A stretch of DNA of 32,982 bases from Gammaproteobacteria bacterium 42_54_T18 (GTDB lineage Bacteria > Pseudomonadota > Gammaproteobacteria > Pseudomonadales > Ketobacteraceae). Below the pieces are notes generated by a model. The model was given only the letters and a program-made list of their open reading frames with translations, was not told where the DNA came from and did no database searches. Every line of letters starts with the position of its first letter. The first letter of the stretch is position 1. The stretch is taken from assembly GCA_002163245.1 (NCBI GenBank), contig MAAL01000058.1, positions 1-32,982 of the forward strand, in the 5' to 3' direction. This document shows positions 2,038 to 25,384 of this stretch, in pieces. The position numbers and the translations under genes were made by a program.

Positions 2038-3036
2038 CTATACTTTGTTATTTGATGCTTTTAACATTGCAAGTAACTTGTCCGGTGGGCGAAACGTCCC
2101 CTTACGTAGGTGCGGTGGAACAATTTGTTCAATTGCTTCCAATTTTTCACTCGGGTCGGCACGCGTATAAATTTCTGATGTTGCCAAATTACTATGACCC
2201 AACCACAATGCGACTTTTCGAATATCTTGAGTTGCTTGCAAGATTATCATCGCGCAGGCATGCCTCAATACATGTGGTGATACTCGTTTCTTAGATAATG
2301 ATGGGCAATGGCACATAGCTGTTTTAACATGACTTTTTAGCAAGTAGGCAAATCCCCAACGAGTCATGGGTTCTCCTCGCGCATTGACAAAAACCTCAGG
2401 AGTTGTTGTCTCTCCTCTGATCGCTAACCATGCTCTCAGCGCCGTAGTAGTAACCTGCCATAGAGGTAATGCTCGCTCTCGTCGGCCTTTACCATGAACA
2501 AGAATACTCTTCTGCGATGAGGTCAAATCGTTCGTTTGTAAGCCAACTAACTCTGAAACGCGTAAGCCAGCACAAATAGCTACGTGTAGCATAGCTCGGT
2601 CTCGAATTCCCATACGAGTTGTGGGATTTGGTGCATTGAGTAGTGCCTGGATTTCCTCTTGGTTTAGGTAAGATACCAACCGACTATCAGTTTTTTTAAA
2701 AGGAATTGCTAGGACAGCACGAATTTGGTCAAGTCTAGCAGGTAAGCGATATTCCAAAAACCGAAAGAATGATTTAATGGCAGCTAACCGTATGTTTCTT
2801 GTATCTGGTGAGTTTTGACGTGTCTTTTCAAGGTCTTCGAGAAAATCACTAATAAGTGTTGCTTTCAATTGCTCTAGCATCAAACTAGAGGGCGGAACTT
2901 TGTACTTTTTCGCTGCAAATTCGAAAAGCAGTAAGAAACTATAAGCATATGAATCACAAGTGTGTGGACTAAGCCCCCTCTGATGAATAAGATATTCACA
3001 AAGAAATGCTTCAATGTGCTGACTAATTATGACCAC
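2038..3036 (-). CDS. ritC: RIT tyrosine recombinase, third gene
   Basis: This 332-residue tyrosine recombinase is the last gene of the trio. It has an N-terminal SAM-like core-binding domain (about residues 5-110, LCEYLIHQRGLSPHTCDSY) and a catalytic domain with Arg in GLRVSELVGL, the H-x-x-R box in SPHVLRHACA, the GH of LGHSNLATSE and the nucleophile Tyr in IYTRADP, so all catalytic residues are visible. Translation starts at GTG 3036, overlapping the end of ritB by 10 nt, with GGGAG about 9 nt upstream, which indicates translational coupling. In known RIT elements all three recombinases are always kept together; their separate roles are not established. The stop is TAG at 2038, 10 bp from the subterminal motif. 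Confidence 0.88.
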   Translation of the reverse strand: MVIISQHIEAFLCEYLIHQRGLSPHTCDSYAYSFLLLFEFAAKKYKVPPSSLMLEQLKATLISDFLEDLEKTRQNSPDTRNIRLAAIKSFFRFLEYRLPARLDQIRAVLAIPFKKTDSRLVSYLNQEEIQALLNAPNPTTRMGIRDRAMLHVAICAGLRVSELVGLQTNDLTSSQKSILVHGKGRRERALPLWQVTTTALRAWLAIRGETTTPEVFVNARGEPMTRWGFAYLLKSHVKTAMCHCPSLSKKRVSPHVLRHACAMIILQATQDIRKVALWLGHSNLATSEIYTRADPSEKLEAIEQIVPPHLRKGTFRPPDKLLAMLKASNNKV

Positions 3037-3944
3037 GATTTTTCTCCCTTAAATAAGAAGCTTTCACAATCAATAGCGATATTACGTAACAGCTCAGGTG
3101 CAGCTTCAAGATACCAAAATGTTGAATAAACATTGGCGTGCCCCAAATAGGTAGACAGTGCTAACATGTGCTGACTCACCAATTTACGACCGTTCGAACA
3201 CTCCAGTAGCGAGTTCACAGCAAATCGATGGCGTAAGTCATGTAATCTAGGTTGGGGAACACCTGCTGGGGTCGATAACTTTGTTCTTTTCAGCAATTTT
3301 TTAAATGTGCAATACACTGAACTATAACGCAGTGGTTGTCCCACCTCTGTAACAAATACTTCATTATTGCTTGATGATACTGAACGTCGACGAACCAAAT
3401 AACGTTCCAATCCGAGTACTGCAGTGTCATGCAATGGTACCAGACGGGTCTTACGGAACTTTGTATGGTGGATCAAAAGCCCGTCGGCAGTGATGTCAGA
3501 AAGGTGTAGCTTCAATGCCTCAGAGACTCTAAGTCCTGTTGCTGACAATAGCGCAATTAAATTCGCAAAGGTATGTGGATACAAAGTGTCTGGTGGACCT
3601 AGCGCTAATGCAGTTTTAATCAGATTAGTGATCTCTGTATTGGAGTAAATAAATGGTAAGCGTCGTGTTTTATAACAGAAAAAATAACGTGATGGCGGCA
3701 ACTCATGACGTTTGTCTTCTAAACGAATATAACGAGCAAATCTACACACCGTTTTTATTCTGGTATCACGTTGAGCCACAGACACAGCTTTACTGGCCCA
3801 TTTTATCGCGGTTGAAGCACGGATGAATGATTCACCAGATTCTGCTGCAAATCGGGCATAACTAAGTAACAGACATTCATCGTTTGAGAGAACAAAACCC
3901 GTTGTACGTCGCAAAGCCAGGTATAATTTTATATCGTGTATCAT
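3027..3944 (-). CDS. ritB: RIT tyrosine recombinase, second gene
   Basis: This tyrosine recombinase has about 305 residues. The best start is ATG at 3944 (MIHDIKLYLALRR): it overlaps the TGA of the upstream recombinase frame as ATGA and has GGAGG about 7 nt before it. An ATG 18 nt further upstream gives a longer but less likely start. Catalytic features are GLRVSEALKL (Arg I), RLHDLRHRFAV (H-x-x-R), YLGHANVYST (GH) and the Tyr in FWYLEAAPEL. The overlaps on both sides (4 nt upstream, 10 nt downstream) suggest the three recombinases are made in fixed ratio from one message. Confidence 0.88.
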   Translation of the reverse strand: MIHDIKLYLALRRTTGFVLSNDECLLLSYARFAAESGESFIRASTAIKWASKAVSVAQRDTRIKTVCRFARYIRLEDKRHELPPSRYFFCYKTRRLPFIYSNTEITNLIKTALALGPPDTLYPHTFANLIALLSATGLRVSEALKLHLSDITADGLLIHHTKFRKTRLVPLHDTAVLGLERYLVRRRSVSSSNNEVFVTEVGQPLRYSSVYCTFKKLLKRTKLSTPAGVPQPRLHDLRHRFAVNSLLECSNGRKLVSQHMLALSTYLGHANVYSTFWYLEAAPELLRNIAIDCESFLFKGEKSWS

Positions 3945-5187
3945 TGGAGTGCCTCCGGCCATGGTTGGGCAATCTGTTTAAGCAGTGCAACATCAACTTT
4001 GGCGTAATAAGCAGTGGTATCCAAACGTTTATGTCGTAGCACTAAACCGATTTTATCTAATGGAACACCATTCGTAACATCTCAGTAGCCGCTGTGTGTC
4101 GAAGCACATGGGCACCTTTAATGCGTGTGTTCACACCAGCTCTCAACAAAGCTCTTTTAACCACTGATGATACACTTCCCCCTGATGAAAATTCTTGGTA
4201 AGGGACAATATTGCTAACAAAGAGTTTGTTGGTTTGTGCATTTTTGGGACGCAATTCGAGATAACGTTGTATTGCATCACCGACATCCTGAGGTAGTGGT
4301 AGACGAACTTCTGAACGACTTTTTCCCGAAACCCGAAGGCTGCCGTCATGCCATTCGATATCATCTATATTCATTTTTGCTACATCTCCAGCACGAAGTC
4401 CGAGCCGCACAAGTAACAAGATAATAGCGAGATCACGAATACGATTTAGTGAGTTGCCTTCACTCTTCTCAATCAGTTTCTCTAGTTCATCTGTGGTTAA
4501 ACTCTGGGGAAGTTCCGTCAAACGCCAGTGCGCGAATACGGGGACAGCTTGATCTAAGTCCGCGGTACAGCGACCACCGATAATGAGGTAACGCAGAAAT
4601 ATTCGTACAGAGGTTATGAGTTTCTCAATAGTGGGTGCATTACACTTTTTGGCAGATTCAAGAAAAAAAGTACGTATTTGTTTCGCATCCCACAAAGAGG
4701 GATTATCAGCTAGCTCATTCAGTAACCGGCTGGCACCAAAGCTGTATTGCCTGATTGTATCTGGTGTTAAACCGCGATGGTTGTGGAGCCAATAACGAAA
4801 ATTCACCAAATAAGTTGAATCCGTGCACTCAACAATGAGAACGGGATCAGGAGCTAAAATATTTATCTGCGTTAAATATCGATAAAAACACTTCACGCCA
4901 AAAAAAGTGTGATGATTGACTACACCCCCATTAGAGTTCTGGCATCGACAAGTAGGTAGATGACGACGAAAAGAGTCAGGAGTGGTGGTATTAACATCAG
5001 TTAAACTCTTTCCTTGGCTTAGCAAAAAGTATCCAAGGTGGGCTGCAACACGCAGATAACGTATGGCGGTTGAATGTGAATAACCTTTTTCCTTGAGCAT
5101 AGCGGCAAAACCATCTATGTAAGGCGCACTCGGTCCTGAACGTAAGCGCTTAAGAGTTTTGGGTGTAACAAAGTAATTCTCCAACAT
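3941..5187 (-). pseudogene. ritA: RIT tyrosine recombinase, first gene, frameshifted before catalytic Tyr
   Basis: The frame opens at ATG 5187 (MLENYFVTPKTLKRL) and encodes core-binding domains and the first catalytic residues: Arg in RLGLRAGDVAKM and H-x-x-R in GAHVLRHTAATEMLR. It then hits TAG at 4057. Shifting frame near 4071-4075 (one base appears to be missing in TTACGAATGG) recovers the rest of the family sequence, NGVPLDKIGLVLRHKRL then DTTAYYAKVDVALLKQ with the nucleophile Tyr, ending in TGA at 3941 that overlaps the ritB start. So the annotated-length product (376 residues) lacks the active-site tyrosine. It could be a real mutation, a sequencing error or, less likely, programmed frameshifting. 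The upstream leader 5188-5320 holds the right subterminal motif. Confidence 0.85.
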
Positions 5188-5245
5188 AACAATATCCTTA
5201 TATTTAGTTTGTGGATATTGTCAGAATAGCAGAGCAAGTGTATCT

Positions 5246-5257
5246 TTATGGGGAGTA
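5246..5257 (+). repeat. RIT right subterminal motif
   Basis: TTATGGGGAGTA differs by one base from the core TAATGGGGAGTA and faces the copy in the right terminal repeat (TACTCCCCATTA at 5322-5333). The pair spans 88 bp, almost the same as the 87-bp span at the left end. Confidence 0.7.
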
Positions 5258-5321
5258 AAAAAGTAAAGGTTTAGCCATAACATATTGAGGACATGCATAA
5301 AATTGTTTTATTTCGTAGGTT

Positions 5322-5353
5322 TACTCCCCATTAAAAAATGTGCCCATTAGACA
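5322..5353 (-). repeat. RIT right terminal inverted repeat
   Basis: Read on the minus strand these 32 bases are identical to 1921-1952. The repeat ends in GACA (5350-5353), which also borders the left side (1893-1896); the split transposase frame continues immediately at 5354. Confidence 0.85.
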
Positions 5354-5548
5354 GGAGTTGTAGGCTATCTGGTCGTGATTACACGAAGGACAATGCAGCA
5401 GATGACCACCGAGCACACGGGTTCGACAGTGTTCAATGGCTGACATCACTTTGTGCTGCGCTAACCCTAAATGACCCACATGTTCATTGCGGTAAGTTTG
5501 ACCCGCAGTTCGAAACACATCCGCCACTTCCAGTTTTGGGCGAGACAT
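5354..5548 (-). pseudogene. IS91-family transposase, N-terminal part
   Basis: ATG at 5548 opens MSRPKLEVADVFRTAGQTYR..., 65 codons reaching the first half of the IS91 zinc-binding motif (HCPSCNHDQIAYNSC) before the RIT element interrupts. The continuation RNRHCPKC is at 1896. The start lies 7 nt after the recombinase stop, consistent with co-translation of recombinase and transposase. An artefactual frame continues into the RIT end, adding LMGTFFNGE, and should be ignored. Confidence 0.88.
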
Positions 5549-5555
5549 AAATAAC

Positions 5556-6467
5556 TCACTTTGTCCCTTTATTTTTCTTCGTTTTTTTAGCTTTCTTCTT
5601 CATGATGGTGTCCAGCGGACTGGTGACTTCTTTTAATAAATCCGTGGCAACTTGCGCATACAAGGCGGTGCTATTGAGTTTGCTGTGCCCTAACAACACT
5701 TGTATCACGCAAATATCTACTTTGGCTTCCAATAAATGTGTGGCAAAACTGTGCCTCAAGGAATGCATAGAAATCTTTTTAGTGATACCTGCCGTAGAAA
5801 CGGCGACTTTGCATACCCGACTCAAATGACGGGAGGTCATATGATAAAGAGGGTTATCACCAGGAAATAACCAGCCAGCTTTTAACATCTGCCCCTGTTG
5901 ATTGGCAAAACGCCACCAGTTACGAAGGTGCTCAAGTAAGACAGGAGATAGCATGGCGTAACGGTCTCGGCGACCTTTGCCTTGTTCAACCCGTAGTGCC
6001 ATACGTTCACTGTCGACATCGCTGACCTTGAGGTTGACGACTTCACTGACCCGTAAACCAGCGCCGTAGGCCACGGCCAATGCTGCCTTAAACTTCGGGT
6101 GCATTGCCGCTTCAATGAGTTGTTTCGCTTTGTCCATGCTAAGCACTTCAGGCAATTTACGGGCGACAGGCACACTGCTGAGCTTAGACACCACCTCGGG
6201 TCTATCAAGTGTAATGTTATATAGGAAACGCAAGGCGGTCAGGGTGACATTAATCGTTTGACCTGTGGTGCCAATGTTGACTAAATGCAACTGAAATAGT
6301 CGTAGGTCTTCAGCGGTGACCTCCTCTGGTGAGCGTTGCAGATAATCACAGAGTTTAGAAATGCCTCTAATGTAGGTCATAAGACTAGCTGAGCCGAGTT
6401 TGCGCAAAGTGACTTCGTCTTCAATACGTTTAAGTAATTGTGGTGGGAAATAAGTGCTAATGTTCAT
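5556..6467 (-). CDS. IS91-associated tyrosine recombinase
   Basis: This is an intact 303-residue XerC/D-like recombinase: core-binding domain at residues 1-100, then a catalytic domain with GAGLRVSEVVNLKV (Arg I), QGKGRRDRYAML (beta-hairpin with conserved Lys), SMHSLRHSFATHLLE (H-x-x-R), LLGHSKLNST and the nucleophile Tyr in ALYAQVATDL. The C-terminal tail is lysine-rich (KKKAKKTKKNKGTK). It starts at ATG 6467 with GGAG about 10 nt upstream, which lies inside a hairpin. The gene precedes the transposase of the same IS91-type unit, and this pairing recurs in part of the IS91 family. Its job there is not known; resolution of transposition products is a reasonable guess. Confidence 0.85.
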   Translation of the reverse strand: MNISTYFPPQLLKRIEDEVTLRKLGSASLMTYIRGISKLCDYLQRSPEEVTAEDLRLFQLHLVNIGTTGQTINVTLTALRFLYNITLDRPEVVSKLSSVPVARKLPEVLSMDKAKQLIEAAMHPKFKAALAVAYGAGLRVSEVVNLKVSDVDSERMALRVEQGKGRRDRYAMLSPVLLEHLRNWWRFANQQGQMLKAGWLFPGDNPLYHMTSRHLSRVCKVAVSTAGITKKISMHSLRHSFATHLLEAKVDICVIQVLLGHSKLNSTALYAQVATDLLKEVTSPLDTIMKKKAKKTKKNKGTK

Positions 6468-12478: not shown

Positions 12479-12490
12479 AAAAGGGTGGCT

Positions 12491-12772
12491 ATGGAATTAA
12501 AAATAAAATCTGTGCAGCAGCTAGGTCAGTTAAGTCGAGCTGTAAGAAAAAGCCAAGGATTAGATCAAACTACGGCGGCAATCTTTTCTGGCAGTGCCAA
12601 AAATTTTGTTAGTCAGTTTGAAAATGGGAAGTCATCAGTAGAGATTGGCCGCGTATTCGATTTGCTTGAAAATTTAGGTGTTGAATTGTCAGTTAATGTC
12701 TCGGTACCTATAGATCCAGAAAATAAAGAAAAATTATTAAAATCCCTTGATAAATTAGGTTTTGATGTATGA
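12491..12772 (+). CDS. hipB: HipB-type antitoxin, XRE-family DNA-binding protein
   Basis: A 93-residue protein with a helix-turn-helix of the Cro/CI (XRE) type over residues 8-66: LGQLSRAVRKSQGLDQTTAA, then FSGSAKNFVSQFENGKSS, followed by FDLLENLGVELSV. HipB neutralises the HipA kinase by complex formation and represses the operon. The chosen start is ATG 12491, preceded by AGGGTGG; a GTG two codons upstream (12485) is possible but sits in the ribosome binding region. It ends in TGA that overlaps the hipA start (ATGA), indicating translational coupling. Three palindromes upstream are its probable operators. Confidence 0.85.
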   Translation: MELKIKSVQQLGQLSRAVRKSQGLDQTTAAIFSGSAKNFVSQFENGKSSVEIGRVFDLLENLGVELSVNVSVPIDPENKEKLLKSLDKLGFDV

Positions 12773-14073
12773 GTGAAGAAAGTGGTGTTCGCAAGCTTAA
12801 CGTCTATGTGAACGATGCTCTGGTTGGAGTCTTAAAAGATATAGGGAATATTTGGTCTTTTGAATATGATGATAATTGGGTCTCAAATAAACAAGCATTT
12901 TCGCTTTGTCCTGATATACCTCTAGAAATGGGAGAGCAGATTGATGGAAGTACAACCAGGCCTATTCAGCATTTTTTTGATAATTTACTACCCGAAGAAA
13001 ATGCGAGAAAACTCCTTGCCAAAGATCTAGATATTAAAGATGAGACTGATACCTTTTTGTTATTGCAAAAGTCAGGAAAGGAATCAGCGGGTGCTTTAAC
13101 CTTGCTACCTGAAGGCGTTGGAATACCTGACAGGCAAGTTGAAAGTTTGACCGGTGAACAAATATCGGAACGCATTGCTAACTTGCCTAAAGCCCCGTTA
13201 AACAACAAAGAACATAAGCGAATGTCACTTGCGGGGGCACAGCATAAAATGTTGGTGGTCGTTCAAAAGGGCCAGTTTTATGAGCCAAATATAGCCATGC
13301 CCTCAACTCATATATTAAAGCCGGACCATTCGGAGCCTAATGATTACTGGCAAACAACGATGAATGAATGGTTCATCATGACATTGGCAGATAAAGTAGG
13401 CCTTGACGTGCCTAACGTACTAATTAGATATACCCCTGAACCTGTATATGTAATTGAAAGGTTTGATCGTCTAGGAAAATACCCTGATCATCTAAGATTG
13501 CATATCATTGATGCGTGTCAGTTGCTGGGTCTGAGCAAGAGCTCAAAATATTCGTCCTCTAACAGTGAGATTTATAACAAGTTTATAAGTAAGGCAAGAC
13601 CAAGAGCAGTAGTTGTTACTAGAGTTTATCAATGGGTTCTTTTCAATTTATTGATTGGGAACGCTGATGCACATCTAAAAAATGTAAGTTTTTATCAAAC
13701 TGCTAACGGGGCGCAATTAGCGCCATTCTATGATCTGCTAAGTACATTAATATATGAAAAACGAAACTCAAATATATTAAGAGAACCATTATCAATCCCT
13801 ATTGGTACCAAGACTACTTTTGAAGATGTAACCTTTTATGATTTATCATTATTTGCTAGTAGTATAGGGCTTCCAGTTAAGGTAATGAAAAAAGTCACTC
13901 TGGATATGTGCAATGATATACAAGTAAACTTTGATGCTTTATATTTACTTGTATCTAAGCAAGCCCCTAGAATAGAATTGCCAGGTGAACTCCGTATGTT
14001 AAGAGAGATTAATTATAAGGTGTTACAACCAATATTGAGTAAAATTACTTGTTCAATGAGTCAGTTAAGCTAG
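12769..14073 (+). CDS. hipA: HipA-type serine/threonine kinase toxin
   Basis: 434 residues, the usual HipA length. An N-terminal HipA domain (VNDALVGVLKDIGN..., ENARKLLAKDLDI) is followed by the kinase-like C-lobe: MSLAGAQHKMLVVV (nucleotide-binding loop), STHILKPDH, NEWFIMTLADKVGLDVPNV, YVIERFDR, the catalytic-loop GNADAHLKNVSFY with its Asp and Asn, and the metal-binding Asp in LAPFYDLLST. E. coli HipA phosphorylates glutamyl-tRNA synthetase and drives growth arrest and persistence; relatives hit other targets. Nothing looks broken. Next to a partition and replication module, the pair could act as a plasmid addiction system (inference). Confidence 0.88.
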   Translation: MSEESGVRKLNVYVNDALVGVLKDIGNIWSFEYDDNWVSNKQAFSLCPDIPLEMGEQIDGSTTRPIQHFFDNLLPEENARKLLAKDLDIKDETDTFLLLQKSGKESAGALTLLPEGVGIPDRQVESLTGEQISERIANLPKAPLNNKEHKRMSLAGAQHKMLVVVQKGQFYEPNIAMPSTHILKPDHSEPNDYWQTTMNEWFIMTLADKVGLDVPNVLIRYTPEPVYVIERFDRLGKYPDHLRLHIIDACQLLGLSKSSKYSSSNSEIYNKFISKARPRAVVVTRVYQWVLFNLLIGNADAHLKNVSFYQTANGAQLAPFYDLLSTLIYEKRNSNILREPLSIPIGTKTTFEDVTFYDLSLFASSIGLPVKVMKKVTLDMCNDIQVNFDALYLLVSKQAPRIELPGELRMLREINYKVLQPILSKITCSMSQLS

Positions 14074-14428: not shown

Positions 14429-14441
14429 ATTATCCCACACC
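14429..14441 (-). promoter_or_regulatory. Ter-like 13-bp motif A, inverted orientation
   Basis: On the minus strand this reads GGTGTGGGATAAT, identical to motifs B and C. The extended match with B includes the preceding G and the following A-T. Orientation is opposite to B and C. See the Tus-like gene. Confidence 0.6.
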
Positions 14442-14532
14442 CAAAAGATTATACTTTAAAAAAGGGTGCTCCTTCTAACTCTTATGCATTACTAATAAAA
14501 GAAATAGTTCTTCAATAAAAAGTTAGTCTTAG

Positions 14533-14545
14533 GGTGTGGGATAAT
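14533..14545 (+). promoter_or_regulatory. Ter-like 13-bp motif B
   Basis: GGTGTGGGATAAT on the plus strand, 104 bp from motif A and 64 bp before motif C. It lies upstream of the Tus-like gene, probably around its promoter. Confidence 0.6.
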
Positions 14546-14596
14546 ATTTATTGATGAAAATGCAGTACTAAACTATAATAAAACTTACCTTTTTTT

Positions 14597-14609
14597 GGTG
14601 TGGGATAAT
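14597..14609 (+). promoter_or_regulatory. Ter-like 13-bp motif C overlapping the translation start region
   Basis: GGTGTGGGATAAT ends 3 bp before ATG 14613, where a ribosome binding site would be. A bound protein here would block transcription of the gene. In E. coli the TerB site likewise lies at the tus promoter and mediates autorepression. Core bases TGT-G-A recall the E. coli Ter core, but overall similarity to it is low. Confidence 0.6.
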
Positions 14610-14612
14610 TAG

Positions 14613-15521
14613 ATGGAAGAGTTAATAGTAAAAAAAATTGTTGATGATATAACACTGCTTAAATCCGCTATCAGTAATCTATGTTCTTCACTCAATCAAA
14701 GTAAAGTTAAAGCAGCAATCTTAACTCAAAGTTTTACCGATATTGAGCTTATTGAAGATCTCTCTATTCCTTACAGCAATTTCTATTATGACGATGAAGA
14801 TCAAGATGGTAACAAAGTTAATACCTATTATGGTTATATTTGTTGTCCAAGCAGTGAAAAAATAATTGACGAAGTAACGTTAGTTAATATGATGAAAGTG
14901 AATATTTCTAACTCAATAAAAAAGTTGAGACTGTTTTATAAATCGAACCCGCCAATATTTAATAAAATTATTGCTACGGTTGATCCAATCGGTAGAGTAA
15001 ATCTGAAAGAACTAACTCGACTCATAGTTTTGATTGAGTCCGATAACTCCCCTATTAAAAAAGTTTCGTTCCAACCAGAAATTATTAACAAAGGAAAAGG
15101 ACGTTGTTTAACCGGAAGTGAAATTAAATTTGTGATTAACAATTATTTTGAAGGTGTTGAAGGAAGATACGCACAAGATTTAAAACAGCTAAACAGAATT
15201 AAAAGTAATGAGCTACTTTCACCTATTGGAGCAGAAAGAAGAAAATGCAGAGTTAATATAAGTTCAGCAGATAAAACGTTCAAAGGTAAGTATTGTTCGA
15301 TTCCAATTATCATTTTAAGTAAACCATCTACTCATTTTAAAACTAACCTGCATTCTATTTTTGAAAAGTCATTTAAGAAAATTAGAGTTGATCAACAATT
15401 AGAAGAAGTACCGTTTCTAGCATTTAGATCGTTCACCAGAAAAAAAATGGGCTTTAAAACCTTTCTGTCTAACGATGATCTTGAAGAAAGAGCAGATTAT
15501 TTAAATTCTGCTTTTATTTAA
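14613..15521 (+). CDS. Tus-like replication-terminator (Ter-binding) protein
   Basis: 302 residues, close to E. coli Tus (309). Aligned by eye with Tus it matches in order: an N-terminal heptad-like helix (IVDDITLLKSAISNLCSSLN), GYICCPSSEKIIDEVTLVNM against GVLCYQ...LSQAALVSHI, PIGRVNLKELTRLIVLIES against LPGLITLNAYRTLTVLHDP, a basic linker plus helix (INKGKGRCLTGSEIKFVI against ANKHIIKNLHRDEVLAQL), and ERRKCRVNISSADKTFKGKY then CSIPIIIL against the interdomain DNA-binding strands RPVKVQPIARVWYKGDQ...CPTPLIAL. Tus stops replication forks with polarity at Ter sites and represses its own gene. Three copies of a 13-bp motif precede this gene, one touching its start. The gene points toward the plasmid origin. 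Identity is low, so the family call is probable rather than certain; another origin-linked DNA-binding protein is the alternative. Confidence 0.65.
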   Translation: MEELIVKKIVDDITLLKSAISNLCSSLNQSKVKAAILTQSFTDIELIEDLSIPYSNFYYDDEDQDGNKVNTYYGYICCPSSEKIIDEVTLVNMMKVNISNSIKKLRLFYKSNPPIFNKIIATVDPIGRVNLKELTRLIVLIESDNSPIKKVSFQPEIINKGKGRCLTGSEIKFVINNYFEGVEGRYAQDLKQLNRIKSNELLSPIGAERRKCRVNISSADKTFKGKYCSIPIIILSKPSTHFKTNLHSIFEKSFKKIRVDQQLEEVPFLAFRSFTRKKMGFKTFLSNDDLEERADYLNSAFI

Positions 15522-15734
15522 CCACTGATAATTTGTGTGAACAGCTTTTACTGTATCTTGTTTTTAAACTATTCAATAAATAACTTTTATTATTAGAGCT
15601 TTCTTATAATATGTTAGAGACTTTATTTATTTTGAATTAGAATAATAGTTAACAATAGTTAATAAATTAGTTATTAAGTTAATACGTTACGTTTATTGAA
15701 ACCCACATTTTTAAAGGCTTTAACTACCTACTGT
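15522..15734. other. AT-rich spacer left of the origin
   Basis: No gene or clear hairpin. The sequence is very AT-rich with repeated TTAATAAATTAGTTA-like stretches near 15640-15690 and may contribute to origin melting. Confidence 0.35.
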
Positions 15735-15924
15735 GTGTTTAATACCTCGATATCTTGTGATTAAAAACCCGATATGTTGTGTTTAATAGCGTGATTAAAA
15801 CCACGATCATTTGTGGTTAAAACCACGTACCAAGTGTGATCAGAACCCCGAGCTTACCGTGATCAAAACCTCGATATAATTCACAGCATATACACACCTT
15901 AATAACAGGTTTTTGCACCGTTTT

Positions 15925-15933
15925 TGTTGATAA
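15925..15933 (-). promoter_or_regulatory. Possible DnaA box
   Basis: On the minus strand TTATCAACA differs by one base from the DnaA box TTATCCACA. It lies inside the origin just before iteron 8. A single near-match can occur by chance. Confidence 0.35.
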
Positions 15934-15977
15934 ATCTGTGTTTAAAACCCCGAATGCCTACAAAATAATAAATATAT

Positions 15978-15998
15978 AATAACATACCGTATGTTATT
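15978..15998. promoter_or_regulatory. 21-bp palindrome in origin, shared with parA promoter
   Basis: AATAACATAC-C-GTATGTTATT has perfect 10-bp arms. The same half-sites AACATAC and GTATGTT, with a 13-bp spacer, overlap the parA promoter at 19417-19443. A common regulator of partition and replication is the simplest explanation. Confidence 0.6.
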
Positions 15999-16129
15999 TA
16001 AAGCATAATCACTTTTTTCTATTATCGCTCGTATATTTTCTAAAATCAGATCTTCGATGTGATCAAAACCCCGAAGTTAGCCGTTATAAACAGTACAAAT
16101 AATGCTCTTTGTGTTTAAAACCCCGATGA

Positions 16130-16993
16130 TTAGCCAATTTCCATAGCTTTTTTTTCAGATTTTAAACGACCATTTTTATCTTTAAAAACAATAATCTTTT
16201 CAACAGTTCCCGTTGTTTTAGCAGTAGCATACATAATAAAATAATCAGGGATGGATTGTTTTTTCTCAATTTCTTTAATTTTTCTTCTGAATTCTCTAAT
16301 AGGAGACTTCACACCAAACTTATTATATAAGTTCTCTAATCCTATTTCCCATTGTGTTTGATTGCCACAATGCTTTCTACAGAGTTCATACAGTCTTCTA
16401 TCGTATGGTGACCTTAATGAAAAATATTGAGTTGAATAAGTTAGTATTTGATTATTACTAACAGCATCAAAAAGAATAGAAGGTAATATTAATTCAACAT
16501 ACTTCATCCGACCTGTTTTTTCATCAGTAATTAAATCGTAATCACTAACAAAACTAAAACCCTTATCACGCTTAGAATCACCTTGTTTTGTCGTAGTGTA
16601 GACCGTTGTACCTGCTAACCTTTTTAAAGACTCTAAAACAGCTTTATACGATTTACCGTCAGTGTTTTTATTGGTGCTTTTCAAATAATCATACAAAGTT
16701 ACGTGTATCTTTTGCCCTATCGCTTGACCACGATTTTTAGCTTCTGCAATTTGACCAAAACAATATAGTAAAAGATCCTTATCGTGTATCGTTGCCCTGC
16801 CCTTTTCATTGGGGATTATTTCAATTGAAGCACCCGTTTTTTTATTATGATAAACATAAGAGTCTGTATCAACTTTTGAACTTATACTAAATAATGGAAA
16901 TTCCATTGATTGTGTGTCACCTTTCGGTGCTGCATCAATGATATTTGCGACAAATAATTCTAACTGTTCCGAGGAAACTAAATCAGAAGACAT
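16130..16993 (-). CDS. repA: Plasmid replication initiator, RPA family (PF10134-like)
   Basis: 287 residues with the conserved order of the replication initiator protein A family: FPLFSISSK, IEIIPNEKGRATIHDKDLLL, LLYCFGQIAEAKNRG, VTLYDYLKSTNKNTDGKSYK, LESLKRLAGTTVYTTTKQG, FSFVSDYDLI, VELILPSILFDAV, YFSLRSPYDRRLYELCRKHC and SPIREFRRKIKEIEK. These proteins are winged-helix iteron-binding initiators. It starts at ATG 16993, three nt after the upstream stop, with AGGAG about 10 nt before it, so it is translationally coupled to the small gene upstream. The stop lies directly beside the iteron array. RPA initiators are best known from alphaproteobacterial plasmids; a gammaproteobacterial relative with a parAB-x-repA order is consistent with the family. 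Confidence 0.88.
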   Translation of the reverse strand: MSSDLVSSEQLELFVANIIDAAPKGDTQSMEFPLFSISSKVDTDSYVYHNKKTGASIEIIPNEKGRATIHDKDLLLYCFGQIAEAKNRGQAIGQKIHVTLYDYLKSTNKNTDGKSYKAVLESLKRLAGTTVYTTTKQGDSKRDKGFSFVSDYDLITDEKTGRMKYVELILPSILFDAVSNNQILTYSTQYFSLRSPYDRRLYELCRKHCGNQTQWEIGLENLYNKFGVKSPIREFRRKIKEIEKKQSIPDYFIMYATAKTTGTVEKIIVFKDKNGRLKSEKKAMEIG

Positions 16994-17387: not shown

Positions 17388-18416
17388 CTACCCTTTTTTC
17401 AAAAAAGTAATCAAAGAATTAAAAGCAAGATTTAAGTCTTTTGATTTACTTAAATCTAAATTCTCTAAAACTGATTCAGCTTTAAATTCTTTAGTAACAG
17501 CACCAATTATTTTTTTCATAACATCAATATCAGCATCTTTACTAATTTTTATTGTTGGTTTTATTACAACTTTTTTAGCAACAACAATTCCTGATAACTT
17601 CGCTTTAAGTTCTTCATCGGATAATTGAGCGAGTGCCGCAGCTTTTTGTAGACCTTCAACTTTACCTTCTTCAATAGCTTTAATTAATGTATCAGTAGGA
17701 TATTTTATTATGACTAAATACCTTTGAGATTCAGCAACAGATAAACCAGAAACTTTTGCTAATTTTCTAACTGATATTTTTGATATTCCGTGACTACTAG
17801 CAATTAACTTTTCAAGTCTCATTGTTTTTTCAAACAATGTCATATCTTCACGATGAATATTTTCTTCCCATTGAAGAATATCAATTTCTTTTACTGTTAA
17901 TTTTTCTTCACTAATTCTTGAAGATATATATTCTTCACCCAACAATATATGAGTTAATAAACGTCTTTCACCAGATATAAGATGAAATACACTATCCTCT
18001 TGCCATACAACAATAGAATGTAATAAACGTTTAGGTGATTTAAGAACTGCAGCAAACTCAACAATTGAAGTGAAATCTCCAATTTGTTTACCTTTTAAAT
18101 TAAAATATTTTGTTACTTTTTCAACATACTCTTCAACCCAATCATAATCTTCTTCATTTTTTAAATAATTATTGATCGAAAATTTACTTTGTATTTCTCT
18201 AACTAAATTTATATCAATAGTTAGTTTTCTTGGATTGTCTTGATCTGTTTTAATGTGAGAAATAGGAAGGTTTTTTACTAATATATTTTTAACCTTACTA
18301 TCTAATTGTGAAGCCGTAGCAGAAGTCCATTTTTCACTATTACTAACCTCTGTATCTTTATCAATTGTACCTGTACCTGCACGACTATTGTTTTTTGCAC
18401 CAAATTTTTTAACCAC
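17388..18416 (-). CDS. parB: ParB-family centromere-binding partition protein
   Basis: 342 residues. N-terminal ParB/Srx domain with NILVKNLPISHI, IKTDQDNPRKLTID and the CTP-binding GERR motif in HLISGERRLLTHIL, followed by LQWEENIHREDMTLFEKTMR, the conserved ENxxREDL-type box. A helix-turn-helix follows (KISVRKLAKVSGLSVAESQR) and then a C-terminal dimerisation region. There is an unusual ~45-residue low-complexity N-terminus (KFGAKNNSRAGTGTIDKD...), likely including the ParA-stimulating segment. Translation starts at GTG 18416 with AGGA about 7 nt upstream. ParB spreads from parS by CTP-dependent clamping and drives ParA for plasmid segregation. A perfect 19-bp palindrome lies between parA and parB. 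Confidence 0.88.
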   Translation of the reverse strand: MVKKFGAKNNSRAGTGTIDKDTEVSNSEKWTSATASQLDSKVKNILVKNLPISHIKTDQDNPRKLTIDINLVREIQSKFSINNYLKNEEDYDWVEEYVEKVTKYFNLKGKQIGDFTSIVEFAAVLKSPKRLLHSIVVWQEDSVFHLISGERRLLTHILLGEEYISSRISEEKLTVKEIDILQWEENIHREDMTLFEKTMRLEKLIASSHGISKISVRKLAKVSGLSVAESQRYLVIIKYPTDTLIKAIEEGKVEGLQKAAALAQLSDEELKAKLSGIVVAKKVVIKPTIKISKDADIDVMKKIIGAVTKEFKAESVLENLDLSKSKDLNLAFNSLITFLKKG

Positions 18417-18448: not shown

Positions 18449-19396
18449 TTACTTTGCTAATTTTGAATTAAGTTCTTTTTCGCCAAATATTTCACTCAAA
18501 AGGTATTTACATAAACTTTCACTGTGTTTTAAAGCAGTGTGATGTTTACTTATTTGAAATATTGATTTTGGATCTATGCCTTTGAGGTCCCTTTCGGGAA
18601 AGGCGACAGAATTAGGAAGATACAAGTCTCTTGGAAGCATTATAGAGCTTAAACTTTCGTGAAGCATATCAAGAGTACCTTTATGAAGTTTTGTGCTTAT
18701 TTTAACTTTATTAGGTACTAATCCTATTAACTTTAATTGCTCATCATCATCTCTTGAAAAATTATCAGATTGAATAACTTGAATCATCGCATTGATGCCT
18801 TGCATTGATTTCTCTTCTGGTTCAAAAGGAATTACAGCGTGAGTTGCACAGCGAATCGCAGATCTAAAAACGGGATTTCTTGAAGGTCCAGTATCAAGCA
18901 CTACAAGATCATATTCTCCACCGACAAATTCATTAAACAAAACTTCTTTAAGTCTGTGTATAACTTTCGCTTCAATTTTCCCTGACTCATTAGAAAATTC
19001 TGTGTTGATTTTTTCTAATAGAGCAGGGTGTCCAAGTAGACAATCCACCTTACCATTAAAGCCATTTTTAGGATTAACAAAGGTTTCGTATGCTAAAATT
19101 TCTTTACCATAAAAAGTATCTGCAATTGTAGAACGTTGTTCAATTCCGTCATAATCTTCATCCCCTTCAATCCAATCAGGATGTATAGGAGGAAGCTGAC
19201 CACCAGTAGATTGAGGTGAACTTTCCATTCCAACCCAATAATCAGAACTGTTACATTGCATATCGAGGTCAACGATTAAAACATTCATATTTGCTTTTAT
19301 AGAAGCATATTCAGCAATAATTGAGGAAAGGAGCGATTTTCCTACCCCACCTTTTTGCTGAAATATTCCTAGTATATTGGGGTTCTTCGTTTGCAT
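18449..19396 (-). CDS. parA: ParA-family partition ATPase
   Basis: 315 residues. The deviant Walker A motif KGGVGKSLLSS is near residue 15, followed by VLIVDLDMQCNSSDYW (A' box) and DLVVLDTGPSRNPVFR (Walker B with catalytic region); VIPFEPEEKSMQGINAMI matches the ParA C-terminal core. There is no N-terminal helix-turn-helix domain, unlike P1 or F ParA/SopA, so operon repression must come from another protein. It starts at ATG 19396 (MQTKNPNILGIFQQ). First gene of the minus-strand par-rep operon. ParA forms nucleoid-bound gradients that move ParB-parS complexes. Confidence 0.9.
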   Translation of the reverse strand: MQTKNPNILGIFQQKGGVGKSLLSSIIAEYASIKANMNVLIVDLDMQCNSSDYWVGMESSPQSTGGQLPPIHPDWIEGDEDYDGIEQRSTIADTFYGKEILAYETFVNPKNGFNGKVDCLLGHPALLEKINTEFSNESGKIEAKVIHRLKEVLFNEFVGGEYDLVVLDTGPSRNPVFRSAIRCATHAVIPFEPEEKSMQGINAMIQVIQSDNFSRDDDEQLKLIGLVPNKVKISTKLHKGTLDMLHESLSSIMLPRDLYLPNSVAFPERDLKGIDPKSIFQISKHHTALKHSESLCKYLLSEIFGEKELNSKLAK

Positions 19397-19511: not shown

Positions 19512-19546
19512 ACTTATAGGTGTCTCCATTGGAGACACCTATAAGT
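19512..19546. promoter_or_regulatory. Candidate parS site 2 (35-bp perfect palindrome)
   Basis: Perfect 17-bp arms, ACTTATAGGTGTCTCCA and its complement, flank a single T. The inner 19 bp match the site between parA and parB. It lies about 60 bp upstream of the parA -35 box and 25 bp from the IS3 insertion, which just missed it. Confidence 0.75.
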
Positions 19547-19644
19547 GCCTCGTGACGAGATACTAAATAAGTGTAGTGGTACAGTGATTTTGGCCACCTA
19601 ATTAGAGGTGCTATCATGCCCCTCATCAAACTTTAGGTGACACC

Positions 19645-21010: not shown

Positions 21011-22468
21011 TTGATAATCAGCGAACTGCAACGTAAATTAGCAACATGGACAGCAACCGATAAAGCGCGTCGCGTTAATCGATTGTTGCGCCTGATCAGT
21101 CACCCGCAATGGCTTTGCCAAGCGGCTGAAGTAACACTTTCCGCAAAAGGCGCTAAAACGCCGGGCGTTGATGGGATCACTAAAGTTCACTTACAGGCCA
21201 AGTTGACTGATTATTTAGATGAAATCAGAAATGATTTACTCTCAGGTAATTATCAACCAATGCCTGCCAGACGAATTTATATTCCTAAAGCGAATGGAAA
21301 GCAGCGCCCTTTAGGTATACCCACCTTAAGAGACAGAATAGTCCAACGTGCCATGCTCATGGCAATGGAGCCGATATGGGAAAATGATTTTCATTCATTA
21401 TCCTATGGTTTTAGACCTGAGCGCAGTGTTCATCATGCGATTCGTACAGTTAAGTTACAACTAACTGATACCAATATTCCACGGGGACGCTGGGTAGTTG
21501 AAGGAGATTTATCAAGCTATTTTGATACGGTTCACCATCAACTACTCATGACATGTGTACGTAAACGGATCAATTGCAGACGATTTAATGAATTGCTTTG
21601 GCGATTTATCAAGGCGGGACATATTGAACGTAACCTATTCTGTGCAACAAGCGAAGGTGTTCCACAAGGAGGCGTAATTTCTCCATTGCTGTCAAATATC
21701 ATGCTGAATGAATTCGACCAGTACTTGGACAAATGTTACTTGAGTAAGAAAGTACGTAAAGACCGCTGGTACTGGAACCGTACTATCCAAGATAAACGCA
21801 AAATTGCGCTAGAGGAAAAGAGACAATGGAAACCTGCGGTTGCTTATTGTCGTTATGCCGATGATTTTCTTGTGATTGTCAAAGGTAATAAACAGCAAGC
21901 AGAAGTGATACGCGATCAATGTCGAAACTTCCTTGAAGGTAAGCTAAAACTCACACTCAATATGGAGAAAACCCATATTACGCATGTGGATGATGGTTTT
22001 ATCCTCCTTGGGCATAGGCTCATAAGAAAACGTGGTCCTAAAGGTAATATGCGTGTGGTGTCTGGTATTCCACATGGTAAAGCTAAAGCATTTTCTCATT
22101 CATTGAGCCAAGCTTTATCTAGTGATCACAGTTGTAGTAAGGTTGACAAGGTTGAACAACTCAGTCGAAAACTTAAGGGCTGGGCACAATTTTATCGACA
22201 TACTGATTATACCGCAAAAGTTTACAGCAAAATTGATCGTATCGTTTTCTGGAAACTTGCTAAGTGGTTGGCTAGGAAATATCGTAGCTCTATTAAGTCG
22301 TTAATGATGAAATGGATCAAACGCCCGACACCAAATCAGGCTAAGACTTGGGTACTGTTTGGTAAAAGCAATCGAGGTGATTTATGTGGTGCATCACTGT
22401 TTAGGTTAGTGAGTAGCCCTAAATTACCATTTCGTTGGCGATTACCTGAATCAAACCCCCTACCTTAG
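21011..22468 (+). CDS. Group II intron reverse transcriptase/maturase
   Basis: 485 residues. RT blocks are visible: NRLLRLISHPQWLCQAAEVT (RT0), KTPGVDGIT, RRIYIPKANGKQRPLGIPTL (RT2), MEPIWENDFHSLSYGFRPER (RT2a-3), GDLSSYFDTVHH (RT3), SEGVPQGGVISPLLSNIML (RT4), CRYADDFLVIV with the YADD catalytic site (RT5), then EKTHITHVDDGFILLGHRL (RT6-7) and the maturase X domain (LKGWAQFYRHTDYTAKVYSK). No HNH endonuclease domain follows, so mobility would rely on priming at replication forks or nicks. The probable start is TTG 21011 with GGGGTGAAG 5-10 nt before it; the next start codons would cut into the RT0 region. The protein assists splicing and retrotransposition of its own intron. Confidence 0.92.
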   Translation: MIISELQRKLATWTATDKARRVNRLLRLISHPQWLCQAAEVTLSAKGAKTPGVDGITKVHLQAKLTDYLDEIRNDLLSGNYQPMPARRIYIPKANGKQRPLGIPTLRDRIVQRAMLMAMEPIWENDFHSLSYGFRPERSVHHAIRTVKLQLTDTNIPRGRWVVEGDLSSYFDTVHHQLLMTCVRKRINCRRFNELLWRFIKAGHIERNLFCATSEGVPQGGVISPLLSNIMLNEFDQYLDKCYLSKKVRKDRWYWNRTIQDKRKIALEEKRQWKPAVAYCRYADDFLVIVKGNKQQAEVIRDQCRNFLEGKLKLTLNMEKTHITHVDDGFILLGHRLIRKRGPKGNMRVVSGIPHGKAKAFSHSLSQALSSDHSCSKVDKVEQLSRKLKGWAQFYRHTDYTAKVYSKIDRIVFWKLAKWLARKYRSSIKSLMMKWIKRPTPNQAKTWVLFGKSNRGDLCGASLFRLVSSPKLPFRWRLPESNPLP

Positions 22469-24385: not shown

Positions 24386-25384
24386 TTAAGATTTTTTAGT
24401 TAGCGTTGTGATTACAGAAGATTGTTCTTTGTTCGTTTTCTCTAAATTAGTAATAGTAGCGTTGGCTTCTGTTAATTTAGTTTTGCTGTTGGCTAGTTCT
24501 GTGTTGTGCGTATCTTTTTCTTTAACCAAGTTATCATTGGCTGAACTTAATTCTTTTCTAATTACAGTGATTTCTGTTTTGTATTCACTGCATTCAGTTT
24601 CTATTTTAGTAATTGTTTCTTTAACTGCATTAGCTGAAGCTTCTAAATTATTAATTAGTTTGTCGTTACCCGTAATAGTGGATTCTTGGCTTGCAATGTT
24701 TTTACTTAATGAAGCTATAGAATTATTAAGCTCTTTATTATCTTTAACAAGATCTGAATTTTGAGTTTTAACTTCGTTTACATATTCCTGATTGCCTTCA
24801 AGCTTCAATTCAGCTTTAGCTATCTCGGTGCGTAAATTTTCATTAGCAGAAGTTAGCGTTTTGTTGTCTGTTCCTGCATCGCTGAGTTGTTGACGTAATT
24901 CAGTAACAATGGCTTTATTAGATTCTTGTTCAGTTACTAAATCAGCTTTAAGCTTTTCTTGAATTTTAATTACTTCAATTTGAAGCTCTTTAATTTCTTT
25001 TGCTTGTTGTTCGATAATTGCATTTTGCTTAAATAACTTTTCTTCTGAACGTTCTAACTCTTCAATAGCAATGTCTCGTTGCTCGTTTGAATCTACTGCT
25101 TGTTCTTTATATCTATATTCTGCTTCTACACCAAAACGTGTAATTTCTTTCATAAAGCTCTGTGTAAATTCAGAAGAGAATCCCAAACGGTCATAAAGTG
25201 ATTGTTGATTTGCTTCTAATTCCTTTTTCCAATTAGCAAAGTATTTGTGAACTGTACTTGTGCTGCTTATGTCGGGAAGCATTGATAGAACTAACCGTAC
25301 AGTAGGTTTTGTTCCTTTCGAATACAAGTCATTGCATATAGCTGTTACACGTTCTTGAATGCTGTTTTGTTCTGACTGCCGCAT
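24386..25384 (-). CDS. kfrA: KfrA-like plasmid DNA-binding coiled-coil protein
   Basis: 332 residues. The N-terminal ~70 residues (IQERVTAICNDLYSKGTKPT, VRLVLSMLPDISSTSTVHKY, FANWKKEL) match the KfrA N-terminal helix-turn-helix domain. Residues 95-330 form an almost unbroken alpha-helical coiled coil rich in E, K, N, Q and T with heptad spacing. KfrA of IncP and IncU plasmids represses its own gene through an inverted repeat and helps stable inheritance, possibly by forming filaments or plasmid clusters. It starts at ATG 25384. A strong inverted repeat lies beside its promoter. The protein is a fourth maintenance factor next to ParAB, HipBA and RepA. Confidence 0.82.
   Translation of the reverse strand: MRQSEQNSIQERVTAICNDLYSKGTKPTVRLVLSMLPDISSTSTVHKYFANWKKELEANQQSLYDRLGFSSEFTQSFMKEITRFGVEAEYRYKEQAVDSNEQRDIAIEELERSEEKLFKQNAIIEQQAKEIKELQIEVIKIQEKLKADLVTEQESNKAIVTELRQQLSDAGTDNKTLTSANENLRTEIAKAELKLEGNQEYVNEVKTQNSDLVKDNKELNNSIASLSKNIASQESTITGNDKLINNLEASANAVKETITKIETECSEYKTEITVIRKELSSANDNLVKEKDTHNTELANSKTKLTEANATITNLEKTNKEQSSVITTLTKKS

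Follow-up and report, generated by a model that had tools for sequence, protein, structure and literature searches.

By sequence comparison, the analysed window (the whole 32,982-nucleotide stretch, contig MAAL01000058.1 of Gammaproteobacteria bacterium 42_54_T18), a plasmid-like piece of DNA of a marine type of bacterium, encodes a real, very diverged, plasmid-type relative of Tus that comes with its own conserved repeat sites. An earlier note on this DNA had pointed to a 302-residue gene preceded by three exact copies of GGTGTGGGATAAT, the last of them 3 bp before the start codon; all of these are present as described, and the orientation, absent from that note, shows the first copy to be inverted. 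With moderate confidence, we read the locus as an autorepressed plasmid tus gene whose product would act on a Ter sequence of its own, forming a tiny fork trap near an iteron origin. The features that enter into this reading are the following.

14429 to 14441, minus strand: Ter-like site 1, the outer, inverted copy (exact GGTGTGGGATAAT)
14533 to 14545, plus strand: Ter-like site 2, just 5' of the predicted -35 hexamer (exact GGTGTGGGATAAT)
14551 to 14579, plus strand: predicted promoter of the Tus-like gene, TTGATG-17-TATAAT, a 10/12 consensus match lying between sites 2 and 3
14597 to 14609, plus strand: Ter-like site 3, ending 3 bases before the ATG (exact GGTGTGGGATAAT)
14613 to 15521, plus strand: Tus-like gene, 302 aa, ATG start (open reading frame, Tus-family profile)
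15734 to 16127, no strand assigned: iteron array, 8 copies of an 18-nt unit (at least 75% alike; repeat family D1), the probable origin
16130 to 16993, minus strand: replication initiator of the RPA family (PF10134, E 2.1e-71)
17388 to 18416, minus strand: ParB-like partition gene (NCBIfam TIGR04285 and TIGR00180, below the curated cut-offs)
18449 to 19396, minus strand: ParA-like partition ATPase (PF13614, E 2.8e-18)

The 302-aa protein is almost certainly homologous to Tus, as judged from profile comparisons that connect the two via intermediates. No family of Pfam, NCBIfam or PHROGs, PF05472 included, matches it at E <= 0.1, and phmmer against the PDB sequences returns no chain at E <= 1. 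A profile of 38 Tus-family proteins scores its residues 4-270 at 75.2 bits (p 2.6e-25), whereas the highest score among 200 shuffles is 6.3 bits. This profile comprises the distinct members among the collected loci, the query and its close relative being left out, and the family was built from seven seeds including E. coli Tus, one of which (L002) had itself originally been found using the query protein. With the profile of the seven seeds, the query is not listed at E <= 1 under normal filters and scores 28.7 bits with the filters off. A stricter profile was made from 16 proteins, each of which either carries a Tus annotation or exceeds the cut-off of PF05472, with L002 and L007 left out. It yields 36.8 bits (p 1.3e-13), the highest of 500 shuffles being 3.9, and an hhalign probability of 94.1%. 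Removal of two Halomonas and one Methylophaga Tus from this set lowers the score to 13.5 bits (p 1.5e-6; best shuffle 2.5 bits, best unrelated open reading frame 2.6 bits) and the hhalign probability to 3.7%; the entry 'decoy_178346' among the unrelated frames is, by its position, the gene of the close relative read from an internal ATG, and hence no true decoy. These bridging Halomonas and Methylophaga plasmid proteins carry a Tus annotation, and PF05472 recognises 4 of the 11 proteins in alignment A4 at E <= 0.1 (best 2.2e-22). When the query was combined with ten relatives in a profile that left out E. coli Tus, no PDB Tus chain was found at E <= 1. Homology is thus well supported but via intermediates, since direct searches fail and the score drops without the Halomonas and Methylophaga members.

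The likeness to Tus over most of the length, which the earlier note had drawn by eye, is therefore borne out by near full-length profile matches, the by-eye likeness alone being insufficient and PF05472, NCBIfam and the PDB giving no match; in the profile check that the note had proposed, PF05472 itself gives no match, and the wider Tus-family profiles give the 75.2 and 36.8 bits above, or 13.5 bits once the bridging members are removed. Across 145 related genomes, the only BLAST match outside the query's own genome is a weak one (E 0.0033) to a 275-aa Tus-like open reading frame, L002, while PF05472 matches in 7 of the same genomes at E <= 0.1, in 4 of them above the cut-off; no PF05472 match or other Tus was found in the query's own draft genome. 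An AlphaFold2 model computed from the query and its one close relative (two sequences) had a pLDDT of 27.5 and was discarded as useless for judging the fold.

The three copies of GGTGTGGGATAAT are, we predict, very likely the binding sites of the Tus-like protein. They form an inverted pair plus one, in which site 1 opposes sites 2 and 3. In the 6.66 Mb draft genome the exact motif occurs 3 times, always at the Tus-like locus; at one mismatch there are 6 further places, compared with 10 for a reversed-pattern control at up to one mismatch, so that only the exact cluster stands out genome-wide. Within the window, the control at up to two mismatches gives a modest signal (expected 0.58; 3 matches reached in 4 of 100 shuffles). 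The best ungapped match of the motif to TerB is 7/13, a value that 58% of shuffled motifs attain on either strand, and the description of the motif as largely unlike the E. coli Ter is therefore fair. In a register chosen by eye against a Ter consensus, sites 1-3 keep 7, 6 and 7 of 11 positions; 1.3% of the 14-mers of the contig reach 7 against the same consensus.

A second instance of the locus, the single one in a collection of genome contigs, is found in Colwellia psychrerythraea ND2E, where a 188.6-kb contig encodes a protein 89% identical to the Tus-like protein; ARAGORN found no tRNA genes on this contig. The order of genes (tus-like, rep, a 126-aa open reading frame, parB and parA, all named by likeness to the genes of the window) matches that of the window, and related iteron units occupy the same place. 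The sites lie at matching positions and agree at 13/13 (site 1), 11/13 (site 2) and 13/13 (site 3), and both ND2E matches to GGTGTGGGATAAT at up to one mismatch fall at the Tus-like locus. From site 1 to the start codon, 37 of the 39 motif columns are identical between the two sequences, versus 103 of the 149 other columns, and sites 1 and 3 are separated by 155 b in each. Homologues lacking the repeats would have spoken against the earlier proposal, and the one homologue available for this comparison has them. The gene itself, with a dN/dS of 0.22 between window and ND2E, is under purifying selection. No clear similarity is seen between the two in the DNA 5' of site 1, which argues that the sites go with the Tus-like gene. 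Further close relatives were found neither in viral contigs, with peptide patterns that reach close relatives only, nor in plasmids at E <= 0.01, and among 369 genomes of the class the query's own genome was the only match.

Sites 2 and 3 flank the predicted promoter of the Tus-like gene, and the protein bound there would on this account shut down its own gene, in the way that E. coli Tus acts at TerB. The promoter match alone is no evidence, since such matches are frequent in an AT-rich stretch and also in shuffles of it (14 promoter-like sites versus 9.3). The predicted promoter is aligned in ND2E with few changes, and conserved copies of the motif stand on both sides of it. Autorepression of the Tus-like gene, which the earlier note had expected, is probable; the sites in the promoter region are conserved in the one close relative found, as such autorepression would predict.

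The placement next to a plasmid-type origin, also proposed earlier, is supported: 3' of the Tus-like gene follow the eight iterons (~0.2 kb on), the RPA-family initiator, a 126-aa open reading frame and the ParB-like and ParA-like genes. The iterons are probably the working origin; their sequence differs from the site motif. Measured from site 1, the array runs from 1.3 to 1.7 kb, and its near end is 1.1 kb from site 3. An exact terminal overlap is absent, so that the contig is unproven as a closed plasmid. Elsewhere in the window, four consecutive tyrosine-recombinase open reading frames (PF00589) adjoin a Y2_Tnp frame at 2038-6467, a reverse transcriptase/maturase of a group II intron lies at 21011-22468, and a 332-aa probable coiled-coil protein, with merely weak SMC/Rad50-like and spanin-like matches, is encoded at 24386-25384. 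An HTH gene (PF01381, 12485-12772) and a HipA gene are situated just 5' of the Tus-like gene, within 12485-14073; in a P. arctica plasmid HTH and HipA genes lie within ~1.5 kb of tus, and in pMEGA some 6 kb off.

On the basis of this arrangement, we propose that the Tus-like protein would use the three copies of GGTGTGGGATAAT as its own Ter-type sites. Given the opposite directions of site 1 and sites 2 and 3, and if each site blocks from one end only, as Ter does with Tus bound, the 91 bp separating sites 1 and 2 could be entered by forks but not left again. The oppositely oriented sites (14429 minus; 14533 and 14597 plus) lie near iterons that begin at 15734. Of the two forks that start at the iterons, the leftward one would run through sites 3 and 2 and halt at site 1, after ~1.3-1.7 kb, and the rightward one would replicate the remaining plasmid before halting at site 2. 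This would be the plan of plasmid R1 with the stopper carried on the plasmid itself, which would be useful where the host draft genome shows no other Tus. The blocking face is unreadable from the sequence because the similarity between GGTGTGGGATAAT and TerB is not above chance, and a polarity read off that similarity was rejected for the same reason; an inward-facing trap is the sensible geometry, by reasoning, since with outward blocking, forks arriving from outside would have difficulty in copying the DNA between sites 1 and 2. Polar arrest of forks at the candidate sites appears reasonably plausible to us, and effectively unidirectional replication is a tentative suggestion that may follow from it.

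The GC-skew results are mixed to negative and count against this stronger, one-way form of the reading. On the 188.6-kb ND2E contig, a draft contig lacking terminal overlap, the skew rises to ~78 kb and falls until ~162 kb, which mismatches one-way replication from a rep region at ~178 kb; it largely tracks gene orientation, that is, the coding strand. The skew of the window likewise gives no support for one-way replication. Of four replicons with a Ter-like pair, one (pMEGA) has its skew maximum there; those of P. nigrifaciens, P. arctica and G070 do not. In pMEGA (L125, L126; ~19.4-19.6 kb) the cumulative maximum is at 19,564 and the outer Ter-like site starts at 19,546; this maximum is ~12 kb from the point opposite the main rep gene.

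Inverted sites recur upstream of other tus genes. We surveyed up to 330 b 5' of 50 Tus-family genes (the 38 of the family, the window, ND2E and 10 further plasmid genes) for pairs of near-exact 14-mers, with at most one mismatch and low-complexity words excluded. Inverted pairs were present at 10 of the 50 genes, versus 0.8% of 1000 shuffles, and direct pairs at 0 of 50. ND2E is counted among the ten, and the window is not, because its motif is only 13 long. Five of the loci share a pair of TGCATG(A/T)TGGTCTA, with the outer copy inverted and the inner copy on the gene strand:

L004, G070 contig 2 (114.6 kb, 95-b end overlap): inverted Ter-like pair
L037, G170 contig 18: inverted Ter-like pair
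L055, TAC125 pMEGA (Pseudoalteromonas): inverted Ter-like pair
L056, P. agarivorans plasmid: inverted Ter-like pair
L057, S. baltica (Shewanella) plasmid: inverted Ter-like pair

These five are interrelated and hence do not represent five independent events. The outer copy of L055 reads TACATG, the two copies in G070 are the only exact ones in that genome, and the plasmid genes L112 and L113 have only the inner copy in the upstream stretch. In three whole Pseudoalteromonas plasmids the Ter-like pair is located away from the main rep gene. Four further pairs are included in the 10 of 50 and were not taken as Ter pairs: that of L035 looks like the ends of a small insertion element, that of L116 is a long inverted repeat, and those of L049 and L044 are short hairpins. 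The L116 repeat, on a Neptuniibacter plasmid, contains AGTACGCTGTAT at 197 and 117 b 5' of tus, and may be a site pair or an insertion remnant. On a Shewanella aestuarii plasmid (L060), GTATGAGGTAAC, which is close to the E. coli Ter core, stands ~16 b 5' of tus on the gene strand, as a regular-expression match made with no chance control. Over 390 genomes of the order, the inverted-pair pattern was found in one (G170), the G070 pair being wider than the pattern permits. The exact word TGCATGATGGTCTAA occurs in 39 stretches of viral contigs. Paired-motif scans of viral contigs, and scans of them using two other Tus proteins, returned no hits.

The main competitor of the fork-trap reading is that the protein is a Tus relative whose main role is now to repress its own gene from the promoter or to regulate the origin, with the sites as operators and no useful fork stopping. 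Such a role would fit the position of sites 2 and 3 on either side of the predicted promoter, and the skew of the ND2E contig, which looks two-way. It would also fit the residues of the lock or C6 cytosine pocket of E. coli Tus (F140, H144, G149, L150 and R198), which are not conserved in an alignment that is weak and unreliable in this region: F140 and H144 fall in a gap, R198 has no counterpart, and G149 and L150 are replaced by R and V; in the G149 column of the aligned set R is commonest (27), with G at 15. A repressor, however, would have no need of an inverted outer site ~110 b 5' of the promoter, yet this site is conserved at 13/13, and similar inverted pairs recur 5' of other tus genes. 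We therefore regard a purely regulatory role as rather unlikely.

The repeats could instead be the sites of some other regulator, for example the HTH protein of 12485-12772, or of Rep, and lie beside the gene by chance. Both this HTH gene and the HipA gene are indeed present upstream, but ND2E keeps the sites beside its Tus-like gene without clear similarity further upstream, where our reading of open reading frames of at least 90 aa finds transposase pieces and not HipA, and the iterons differ in sequence; this reading is accordingly highly improbable. Least credible of all is that the protein is not homologous to Tus and that the family was over-widened by its intermediates, as the lack of a direct Tus match in Pfam, NCBIfam and the PDB and the low score once bridging members are removed might suggest, because the score covers nearly the whole protein and exceeds those of shuffles and unrelated frames, and because the bridging proteins are annotated Tus and 4/11 of A4 match PF05472.

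The plasmid-type Tus relative with its proposed fork trap can be set beside several known systems. As in E. coli Tus/TerB, whose superfamily it shares by profile, a site lies just 5' of the gene and on its strand (in E. coli the TerB core is ~28 b 5' of tus, by a regular-expression match with no chance control); unlike E. coli Tus, the query is too diverged for PF05472 and its motif differs, and whereas the E. coli sites are spread over the chromosome, here an inverted pair plus one adjoins a plasmid-type origin. Plasmid R1 depends on its host's Tus, and so does R6K, whose terminus has closely spaced inverted Ter sites like those described here. According to a review (PMC10331603), the R1 sites terRL and terRR enforce unidirectional replication, terRL halting one fork almost immediately and terRR the other after most of the plasmid is copied, and R6K has a specific terminus that stops forks whichever way they travel. 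The present locus would resemble R1 in having sites of opposite polarity close to an origin; in contrast to R1, it encodes its own Tus relative, its motif differs, and one-way replication is a suggestion.

Plasmid tus as such is common and known: the Tus protein of L004 has matches in 1327 of 72,556 plasmid records at E <= 0.01. Galli 2019 (PMC6549158) describes a mobile plasmid tus and a tus adjoining the origin on Pseudoalteromonas chromids, and proposes that Tus-Ter reached chromosomes from plasmids. The present gene resembles these in being plasmid-borne, the chromid genes also adjoin an origin, and several of the plasmids have an inverted upstream Ter-like pair; they differ in matching PF05472 or being annotated Tus, in the motif TGCATG(A/T)TGGTCTA and, in the three plasmids analysed whole, in having the pair away from the main rep gene. 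According to Xie 2021 (PMC7858055), chromids replicate one way and the E. coli consensus gave no ter sites on the P. tunicata chromid; the review puts a question mark at the Pseudoalteromonas chromid ter site (PMC10331603), and a passage of PMC8347550 speculates that it lies within the tus promoter. The vicinal Ter sites examined by Toft 2021 (PMC8707476) are 74-83% identical to TerB, whereas the present motif matches TerB at 7/13 at best. In the open-licence literature searched, we recognised no publication that describes these motifs or Ter pairs accompanying a Tus encoded on a plasmid. The new parts are the diverged Tus lineage and its motif.

It is possible, and here we speculate, that the specificity of this Tus branch, which profile databases miss, changed to GGTGTGGGATAAT and that a self-contained three-site trap, built around its own promoter and adjoining an iteron origin, turned its carrier into an essentially one-way plasmid, with the marine-plasmid pairs at tus promoters being ancestral to the chromosomal trap. 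A protein-site pair so far from that of E. coli would test the co-change of Tus and Ter, and also the ancestral status of the cytosine lock. The inverted Ter-like pairs that precede tus on marine plasmids offer candidate sequences for the chromid ter site.
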